A stretch of 64,000 bases of DNA from the NCBI GenBank assembly GCA_029260795.1, contig JAJDCO010000055.1:1-64000 (forward strand), read 5' to 3'. The notes under the pieces were generated by a model. That model made no database searches. It worked only from the letters and a program-made list of their open reading frames with translations, and was not told the DNA's origin. Source of the DNA: Planctomycetota bacterium. Its GTDB lineage: Bacteria; Planctomycetota; OFTM77. Positions 34,194 through 37,254 of the stretch are shown here, piece after piece. Both the position numbers and the translations under genes were made by a program. The stretch's first letter is position 1, and the number at the start of each line of letters is the position of its first letter.

Positions 34194-34387
34194 ACGAGCG
34201 CTCGAGGCGGAGCTCGCGGGGAAGAAGACAAAGACGCTCAAGGTTTCGCCGCTCGCGAGCAGAAAACAGAAGAGGGGATCGGCGCCGGGTCTGAAGGCGA
34301 GGTGCCTCCTTCCGCCGACCGATCCGGAGACACGGTCTGGCTCGTCGAGCGGCAGTCCGTCGCAAAGGCCATGAAGGAACACTAGCG

Positions 34388-35476
34388 ATGACAACGGGCG
34401 ATCCATCCAACCGGCCCATCGACAACGACTCATCGATCAGAATCCAGCTCGAACCGCTCCGAACTGGCGAAGTCGCGCTGATCGAGCAGACGCTCGCCCA
34501 AATCGCTCCGCGAGGCGAAGCCCTGGTCGAACGGTTCTTCGAGCGCCTGTTCTCTCGCCATCCCCGGTCGCGTCAGCTCTTCGGGGCCGCGCCCCCCGAG
34601 CGCCAGCGGCGACAGCTGTGGAACGCGCTGAAGGCGGCGATCAACGAGCTCCGCCGGCAAGCCGCCACCCACGACGCACGGCGTCCCGAATCCGAGGTGC
34701 GTCCGGTAGCCGACACCTTCTCGAAGCTGCTCGCCGACACGGCGGGCCCGCTTTGGACTCCACCGGTTCGTTCGGCCTGGCAGAGGGTCTCGATGCGCCT
34801 TTGGCAGCAGATCCTCGGTGCCTTCGCTCCTGAGATGGAGTCTCTCGAGGTCCAGACGACGCACGGTCTGTGGAACGAGGTCCAGGCGAGCATCGATGCC
34901 GTCTCCGAGACACTGACCGTGTCTCAGGGACATGTCGCGCCGCGGGAGGCGGAGACCCCACTCCCCGTGATCGCGGACATTGGAACTGTTCAGCCGTTGC
35001 ACACCGTGATCACGGAGATCGAATCGATCAGCCGACGGGTCTTCGACCTGGTCGACGAGATCGACGAGCTCTCGGCACCGGCCGGTCGCGTCGGTCCCTA
35101 CAAGGCGCTGGACCTCTCGAGCGCTCCGGTCGCGAGCCGGCAGGCGACGACCGATCTGCACGCGCTCATCGAGCAAGGCATCACGGGCGTGGATACCGAG
35201 TCGAACCGTCTCGGCGAGCTCGATCACCCCACTCTCGAGGGCATCCTCGGGTGTATCGAGAGCGTCACGACCTGGGTCGGCCAAATCGCGGACGCCAGCC
35301 GTCGACAGTCGGATGCCGTCGAGGCGCTCCGTCAGAGCGCCGGAGGCTCGGTTCCTGGAGGGCGTGTGAATCGTGAGCGCCTGACCCGGGCGACGGCGTC
35401 TCTGGACGAGATGATTCGACGATTCAACGCCTTGCGGGCACCGCTTCGAGCGGCTCGCCAACCGATCTGCCCATGA
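34388..35476 (+). CDS. Globin-domain sensor-like protein with C-terminal coiled coil resembling an MCP signalling helix
   Basis: EVALIEQTLAQIAPRGEALVERFFERLFSRHPRSRQLFG...WTPPVRSAW single-domain globin pattern; C-terminus IESVTTWVGQIADASRRQSDAVEALRQS. Confidence 0.75.
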   Translation: MTTGDPSNRPIDNDSSIRIQLEPLRTGEVALIEQTLAQIAPRGEALVERFFERLFSRHPRSRQLFGAAPPERQRRQLWNALKAAINELRRQAATHDARRPESEVRPVADTFSKLLADTAGPLWTPPVRSAWQRVSMRLWQQILGAFAPEMESLEVQTTHGLWNEVQASIDAVSETLTVSQGHVAPREAETPLPVIADIGTVQPLHTVITEIESISRRVFDLVDEIDELSAPAGRVGPYKALDLSSAPVASRQATTDLHALIEQGITGVDTESNRLGELDHPTLEGILGCIESVTTWVGQIADASRRQSDAVEALRQSAGGSVPGGRVNRERLTRATASLDEMIRRFNALRAPLRAARQPICP

Positions 35477-37254
35477 CTCGATCGCGCCCCCCGCATCCAT
35501 CGACGACCGGCAGCAGTCGGCCGGAGCGTCTCGTCGAAACCAAGCGAACCCTCCTGATCGCGGATGACGACGCGATCGGTCGGACGCTGTTGGAGCGAAT
35601 GCTCACCGAGCCGGGGGTACGCGTCGTCACGGCCTGCAACGGACTCGAGGCGGTCGAGAAGTTCTCGGAGACTCGACCCGACATCGTCCTGATGGACGTG
35701 ATGATGCCGGAGATGGACGGGTACGACGCCACGCGCATCATCAAGGAGATCGCTGGCGATCGATTCGTTCCGGTCATCTTCCTGACCGCGCTCACGAATG
35801 AGCAAGGCTTGGCGCGCTGTGTTGAATGCGGCGGGGACGACTTCCTCTCGAAGCCCTACAACCGCATTGTCATTCGATCCAAGATCGCGGCCCTGGACCG
35901 GCTGCGCACGCTCTACGACACGGTCCGATTGCAGCGGGACGAGCTCGCCATCCACGAAGCCGAGCAGCAGCGCGACCATCTGATCGCCCGCACGGTCTTC
36001 GAGCGCGTGCTGAAGCGAGAGCCCGTCTCTCCTCCCGGTCTCCAGACGAGTGTTCGGCCCTCGAACTTCTTCAATGGCGACCTCCTCCTCGAGGCCAAGA
36101 AGCCGCTCGGTGGCTTCCACCTCATGCTCGGCGACTGTACCGGCCACGGTCTTTCGGCCGCGCTGCCCGCCGTCCCCGTCGCCGACATCTTCTACACGAT
36201 GACCGAGAAGGGCTGCTCGATTCGCGACATCGTGCTCGAGCTCAACCGCAAGCTCGGCGCCGTGCTGCCGACCGGGATCTTCTGTGCCGCCCTGCTGCTC
36301 GATGTCGACGTCGAGCGCAACACCTTCGGCTACTGGAACGGTGGCGTCCCCACCGGGTACCTGCTCCGGCCGGGTGGCGGCATCATCGAGGAGCTGGCCC
36401 CCGACCACCTCCCGCTCGGTGTCGTGGGCAACGATCGGATCGACCCGGCGATCCGAATCCGGTCGCTGTCCCCGGGCGATCGCCTCGTCCTGTTCTCGGA
36501 TGGCTTGATCGAGGCGACCGATCAGGACGGCAACCTGTTCGGTGCCCAACGCCTGCGGGCGCTGCTCGAAAAGGACGGCGAGCCCGAGGGGCTCTTCGAC
36601 CGCCTCCTGATGGAGCAGAGTCGCTTCATCGAGAGCACCGAGCAAGCCGACGACATGACGCTCGTCGTCTATCGCCACGAGACGGCACTGCTGGAAGCCG
36701 AGCCCGTCTCCGAGTCGGTTTCTCGCCGAACGCCCTCGCGCTGGAGCTTGTCGCTCCGCCTCGAGCCGGAGTCCCTGCGCAGCAACGACCCGGTCCCGTT
36801 CTTGGTCGATCAGATCGTCAAGCTCCAGGACCTGGCCGGCCACGAGCAGAACCTGATCTTGATCTTGACCGAGCTCTTCTCGAATGCGCTCGAGCACGGC
36901 CTGCTCGGGCTCGACAGCACGCTCAAGGACGGGCTCGACGGCTTCACGGACTACTACGAAGCACGCGAGGCGAAGCTCGCCGAGCTGCTCGACGGCTTCA
37001 TCGAGCTCGAGGTGCGACACGCCCCCGGACCCGATCGGGGCGGGCGCCTGGAGATTCGCGTGGTGGACAGTGGACCGGGCTTTGACTGGTCGGCCCACCA
37101 AGTGCCGCTCGAGGAGAACAGCCTGGTGCGAGGACGAGGCATCCGACTCGTCGAGGCGCTCTCGAGTGAGGTCCGCTTTCAGGGTCGCGGCAACGACGTC
37201 CGCGTGACCTACGACTGGGGACGTGACCGGGAGCTCGAGGCCTCCGAAGGCTGA
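35473..37254 (+). CDS. Response regulator with PP2C (SpoIIE/RsbU) phosphatase and HATPase_c (RsbW-like) domains
   Basis: REC LIADDDA...IVLMDVMMPEMDG; PP2C GDCTGHGLSAAL and FSDGLIEATD; HATPase LTELFSNALEHG, VVDSGPGFDW, GRGIRLVEAL; ATGA overlap with globin gene. Confidence 0.9.
   Translation: MTRSRPPHPSTTGSSRPERLVETKRTLLIADDDAIGRTLLERMLTEPGVRVVTACNGLEAVEKFSETRPDIVLMDVMMPEMDGYDATRIIKEIAGDRFVPVIFLTALTNEQGLARCVECGGDDFLSKPYNRIVIRSKIAALDRLRTLYDTVRLQRDELAIHEAEQQRDHLIARTVFERVLKREPVSPPGLQTSVRPSNFFNGDLLLEAKKPLGGFHLMLGDCTGHGLSAALPAVPVADIFYTMTEKGCSIRDIVLELNRKLGAVLPTGIFCAALLLDVDVERNTFGYWNGGVPTGYLLRPGGGIIEELAPDHLPLGVVGNDRIDPAIRIRSLSPGDRLVLFSDGLIEATDQDGNLFGAQRLRALLEKDGEPEGLFDRLLMEQSRFIESTEQADDMTLVVYRHETALLEAEPVSESVSRRTPSRWSLSLRLEPESLRSNDPVPFLVDQIVKLQDLAGHEQNLILILTELFSNALEHGLLGLDSTLKDGLDGFTDYYEAREAKLAELLDGFIELEVRHAPGPDRGGRLEIRVVDSGPGFDWSAHQVPLEENSLVRGRGIRLVEALSSEVRFQGRGNDVRVTYDWGRDRELEASEG

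Follow-up and report, generated by a model that had tools for sequence, protein, structure and literature searches.

The window, by which we mean the whole 64-kb stretch of DNA that was analyzed, contains two overlapping genes on the forward strand, referred to here as P1 (34388-35476, 362 amino acids) and P2 (35473-37254, 593 amino acids). Both are real open reading frames (ORFs). The original prediction had described a globin gene joined to a second gene by an ATGA overlap, and we found these four bases at 35473-35476, where they form the end of P1 and the start of P2. A likely ribosome-binding site (AAGGA, 34374-34378) lies 9 bases upstream of the P1 start codon. Based on codon usage, the P1 frame scored highest among the six possible frames, and the score of P1 was the lowest among 21 genes of the window. 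The same stretch also carries a 356-aa antisense ORF on the reverse strand (34430-35500), and codon usage was better in the frame of P1.

On the basis of domain content and homology, P2 was solidly identified as a member of the CrsR/HsbR family with intact receiver, PP2C and HATPase domains. All three domains exceeded their Pfam cut-offs: Response_reg at 90 bits (amino acids 28-138; 35554-35886), SpoIIE/PP2C at 144 bits (amino acids 213-402; 36109-36678) and HATPase_c_2, a domain of the serine-kinase/anti-sigma type, at 38 bits (amino acids 459-579; 36847-37209). Motifs for phospho-acceptance (Asp75), metal binding and ATP binding were intact, with FNGD, GDxxGHG, SDG and DD present in the phosphatase domain and the N and G boxes present in the HATPase domain. 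Compared to many homologues, P2 was about 40% identical over about 560 residues, which is nearly its full length. The second gene had been expected to encode intact REC, PP2C and HATPase domains and to be HsbR-like, and both expectations agree with its domain order, catalytic motifs and homologues. Full-length homologues were found in five other genomes of the window's phylum and in four named GTDB genomes (Oceanobacter, Thioalkalivibrio halophilus, Sideroxydans and the BD1-7 clade). Within the Oceanobacter phylum, 90 of 399 genomes contained P2 homologues, with some of the matches lacking the third domain. One P2 paralogue (L039:975-2720, on G035:C286, reverse strand) has a PP2C domain without the GDxxGHG and SDG motifs, together with REC and HATPase domains that look intact.

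The two parts of P1 both matched Pfam models below the cut-offs (Globin at 14.7 bits, with a cut-off of 22 bits; MCPsignal at 16.4 bits), and for this reason we tested the globin and MCP claims separately. A globin profile from the same phylum, built from related globins with P1 left out, matched amino acids 28-145 (34469-34822) with 62.9 bits, and the closest single relative, a globin from genome G065, was the best match in the phylum (E = 1.2e-13; 393 genomes searched). Because of these two results, we consider the globin to be real, as had been proposed when the N terminus of P1 was called single-domain-globin-like. Judged by profile matching, it is a diverged globin of the flavohaemoglobin/single-domain type (F-type) and not a HemAT-type protoglobin. 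Searches of P1 with Pfam gave no match to Protoglobin (PF11563) and no STAS domain.

In the alignment of this domain, E7 Gln and CD1 Phe are retained, B10 Tyr is replaced by Phe and the F-helix signature is eroded. An earlier guess at a proximal histidine has tentative support: His95 (codon at 34670-34672) falls in the invariant F8 His column of a MAFFT alignment and is tentatively assigned as the proximal residue, but the posterior of the hidden Markov model is low at this position and ten residues are missing in front of it, leaving 22 residues between E7 Gln and His95 as opposed to 32 in relatives. Replacing His95 (H95A) shifted the score of the phylum globin profile by 0.1 bit, and 9 of 1,000 shuffles of amino acids 89-112 scored as high as the native segment. 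Haem in P1 is thus putative only, given the shortened stretch, the B10 Phe, the small effect of His95 and the shuffling result. Single-sequence AlphaFold2 models place His95 in a loop, although with a pLDDT of 53, for the full protein and the globin part alike, they are too poor to serve as evidence.

In the C-terminal part of P1, a profile of Aer2-slot receptors matched with 22 bits, a score reached by none of 5,000 shuffles that preserved the hydrophobic pattern. When the same profile was run against 7,750 ORF segments, P1 obtained an E value of 3e-4. Since one sensor kinase scored equally, we regard this match as significant but weak in absolute score, and not overwhelming. The weak NCBIfam matches to P1 were nearly all to MCPs, Aer2 or a flavohaemoprotein. 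Alignment with a profile of eight MCP signaling domains resolved two arms: a short ascending arm (amino acids 201-228; 34988-35071), which is matched up to 'VIDEI' and stops where the tip should start, and a descending arm (amino acids 250-320; 35135-35347), for which the Pfam match below cut-off also speaks. Between them, the 38 positions of the CheA/CheW-binding tip, including NLLALNAAxEAARAGE, are replaced by 21 unrelated residues (amino acids 229-249; 35072-35134). The original prediction was therefore right on both counts, having noted that the C terminus resembled an MCP signaling domain and that the CheA/CheW-binding tip was absent. A derivation of P1 from the mcpA-like receptor that usually lies upstream of the STAS gene was rejected on a score of 0 bits, using an mcpA-like profile of three sequences only, as the motif filter had missed other mcpA-like tips.

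The gene neighborhoods of P2 homologues place the family in a chemosensory context. An HsbA/CrsA-like STAS gene lay directly upstream of the P2 homologue in 39 of the 39 loci readable upstream, a set that leaves aside the homologue on the 3-kb contig G035:C286. Further upstream, an mcpA-like receptor preceded the STAS gene in 19 of 30 loci of the Oceanobacter-phylum set, and cheR, cheD and cheB (or a cheR-cheD fusion) were found near the P2 homologue in six of nine loci with wide flanks. These loci share their gene order with F7 systems, which at stages 1 and 2 comprise cheY, cheA, cheW, an aer2-like gene, cheR, cheD, cheB, an mcpA-like gene, an anti-sigma antagonist and a serine phosphatase, in that order (PMC7184735), and with the Shewanella che1 locus containing CrsR and CrsA (PMC9855816). 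Most P2 homologues seen with wide flanks lie in an F7-type Che cluster and are presumably fed by CheA, as has been proposed for CrsR in Shewanella Che1 (PMC9855816). The view taken in the original prediction, that an Hpt protein feeds HsbR, is thus incomplete, although two loci do have an Hpt gene downstream of the P2 homologue (L084 and L087). In two of the P2-bearing Che clusters, CheR and CheD are apparently fused (L178:10587-12383 and L179:7833-9338).

The P1–P2 arrangement itself did not recur. Lack of a conserved neighborhood had been named beforehand as grounds for refutation, and a globin gene adjoined the P2 homologue in none of the 39 loci; likewise, we found P1 next to P2 in no other genome searched. 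Searches of GTDB genomes, viral contigs and plasmids revealed no close relative of P1; one of these searches detects only near-identical stretches of eight residues. Viral contigs likewise gave no matches to two queries with globins.

A possible source of P1 was suggested by genome G065, where a globin-Aer2 receptor and a P2 homologue lie ~5 kb apart in one Che cluster. This F7-like cluster encodes CheA and CheW as well as the receptor, in which a globin domain (Globin, 58 bits) is joined to an entire Aer2 (833 bits with the Aer2 model). In a globin tree, P1 grouped with the G065 globin (support 90/85), but its branch is very long, at 6.4 changes per column, and we do not rely on this grouping. 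In the simplest history, P1 would have arisen from a globin receptor of this kind by losing the PAS and HAMP domains as well as the tip. The G065 gene itself (L080:14564-16999, on G065:C96, reverse strand), with its in-frame globin and complete Aer2 in an F7-like cluster of the window's phylum, possibly carries both globin and PAS haems. Fusions of an F-type globin to an MCP, about 850-970 aa in length, are also recurrent in one family of the phylum (L034:2910-5804 in G070, with similar loci L005, L007, L013, L015, L017, L019, L022, L024 and L025). In G070, the gene is flanked by cheW on one side and cheY/cheB/cheR on the other, and cheA comes before them.

Seen against these relatives, the window is an exception. 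Neither the window nor the remaining contig contains a STAS gene, no MCP other than P1 is present on the contig, and P1–P2 lies outside any Che cluster. Linkage to a chemotaxis cluster, which had been named as evidence against a direct role of the globin, was thus seen in the relatives of P2 but is absent from the window. A partner STAS protein had been suggested as the object of a genome search, and this yielded a candidate: among the seven STAS domains of the genome, the one at C47:27323-27613 fits the HsbA-like profile with 90 bits, compared to 30 bits or less for the other six. It retains an intact serine motif (DSSALGML), is an orphan among unrelated genes and, judging from the profile, is most likely the partner of P2. 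CheW domains are confined to contig C41, where they occur in a Che cluster, and a single CheA is encoded in the genome, alongside CheW and receptors. This cluster is headed by a HemAT-type protoglobin-MCP (L173:5566-6969, on G000:C41; Protoglobin, 44 bits; MCPsignal, 70 bits).

How P2 switches can be proposed from its family, in which the chemistry is known: CrsR and HsbR use their kinase and phosphatase domains to switch a STAS antagonist, thereby releasing RpoS or other targets (PMC6482189). By analogy, the HATPase domain of P2 would phosphorylate a small STAS antagonist, and phosphorylation of the receiver would turn on the PP2C domain, leading to dephosphorylation of the STAS protein. In its unphosphorylated form, the antagonist would bind the HATPase domain and free the sigma factor or other target held there. 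P1 would have originated as a globin-Aer2-type chemoreceptor of the same F7-like chemosensory cluster as P2. Having lost PAS, HAMP and the CheA/CheW-binding tip, it would be cut off from signaling via these two proteins, while still being translationally coupled to P2. If P1 is working, its most likely role is to bind P2 directly as a soluble bundle of helices, at the receiver or the helix after it, with the state of the globin domain biasing P2 toward kinase or phosphatase activity. The domain identities, the tip loss, the relocation of the STAS gene and the gene order in relatives draw support from the sequences themselves. From operon coupling and the loss of the part that tied P1 to CheA and CheW, we infer that P1 would act directly on P2; the descent of P1, the contact between the proteins, any signal and any haem are likewise inferred. 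P1–P2 may then be a pared-down chemosensory system in which sensor and switch are paired directly. Overall, we give slightly less than even chances to a working direct regulator, in which a tipless receptor relic, P1, acts on a complete CrsR/HsbR switch, P2. The more specific proposal that a tip-excised chemoreceptor became a direct haem-globin regulator of the phosphatase/kinase, producing a one-step haem-gated switch that bypasses CheA, strikes us as improbable.

P1 might be a haem-free, RsbR-like globin that serves P2 as a structural or protein-binding sensor without gas binding, a reading that overlaps with direct regulation and that we entertain as a tentative possibility. The 22-residue rather than 32-residue spacing from E7 to the putative F8, the B10 Phe and the eroded F-helix signature all point this way, and Bacillus subtilis RsbR provides a precedent for haem loss (PMC4476040). 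However, P1 still has E7 Gln, CD1 Phe and a histidine aligned with F8, and HGbRL shows that globins of the F-type can accommodate an E-F region that is out of the ordinary (PMC4476040). Alternatively, P1 could be the decaying remnant of a globin receptor that stayed in place when an F7-like cluster was lost or dispersed, while P2 and its STAS protein work on and are fed by the CheA of C41 or another kinase. The weakest codon signature in the window and the very fast evolution of P1, seen in its 6.4-change branch, fit with decay, as do the replaced tip, the short ascending arm, the deleted F-helix region, the failure to find any P1 orthologue and the persistence of CheA, CheW and receptors elsewhere in the genome. 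Nonetheless, 362 codons have stayed open with the start codon and likely ribosome-binding site kept, P1's own frame is the best of six, the globin core still scores 63 bits, P1 overlaps an intact P2, and random decay would not favor losing exactly the tip. On balance, decay is a weighty alternative, though we rate it below a working direct regulator.

It is far less probable that P1 still joins the chemosensory array of C41 and signals through CheA to the P2 receiver. The genome does have one CheA with CheW and receptors, and P2 homologues are usually located in Che clusters, but P1 has no counterpart of the CheA/CheW-contacting region and lies outside any Che cluster. For P2 itself, input from CheA is quite plausible. 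We attach almost no weight to the reading of P1 as a noncoding stretch, kept open by chance or by the 356-aa antisense ORF, as it is refuted by the globin homology (62.9 bits) and by a codon score that is best in the P1 frame.

A receptor that lacks exactly its CheA/CheW-binding part, yet shares an overlapping operon with the switch, would be a natural case for asking whether a phosphatase/kinase can be controlled directly by receptor bundles. CrsR/HsbR switches usually receive their input from a chemosensory array or from an Hpt relay, and the feeding of their receivers is only partly known. Outside the phylum to which the proteobacterial models belong, our survey links these switches with the known gene order of F7 systems and with a globin-Aer2 receptor. 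The switch itself was already known, as was globin control of partner switching in another form, namely the stressosomes with haem-globin RsbR (PMC9237108). In a literature search that left many journals uncovered, we found no published case of a globin beside CrsR/HsbR, nor of a receptor without its tip in that position.

Among known systems, P2 has the same REC-PP2C-HATPase architecture as CrsR of the CrsR-CrsA system (Shewanella oneidensis che1) and HsbR of the HsbR-HsbA system (Pseudomonas aeruginosa), and the genome encodes a CrsA/HsbA-like STAS protein. Unlike in those systems, P2 has no adjoining STAS, Hpt or Che genes, and a globin/MCP-like gene overlaps it. Compared to F7 clusters of stages 1 and 2, P2 corresponds to their serine phosphatase and the tail of P1 resembles their Aer2-slot receptor, but no Che genes surround P1–P2 and P1 is without PAS, HAMP and tip. 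HemAT-type globin-coupled MCPs, one of which is encoded on C41 of this genome, combine a globin with MCP-type helices as P1 does; they use a Protoglobin domain (PF11563) and keep the tip, neither of which applies to P1. In the haem-globin RsbR stressosome of Vibrio vulnificus, a globin controls STAS/PP2C partner switching, as proposed for P1, but that globin is of the globin-coupled-sensor type and is fused to a STAS domain, which P1 lacks. HGbRL of Methylacidiphilum (globin-Roadblock; PDB 3wfw/3wfx), the second-best solved relative of the P1 globin (whole domain, E = 0.08), likewise has an F-type globin as its N-terminal signaling domain; it differs from P1 in its B10 Tyr, full-length E-F stretch and C-terminal domain. 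As an F-type globin that can be a sensor domain and that tolerates a fused E-F helix (PMC4476040), it provides a lead for P1 rather than a test. Lastly, the G065 globin-Aer2 fusion is a complete receptor with the canonical tip, PAS and HAMP that P1 is without, and its globin, located in a cluster with a P2 homologue, is the closest to that of P1.
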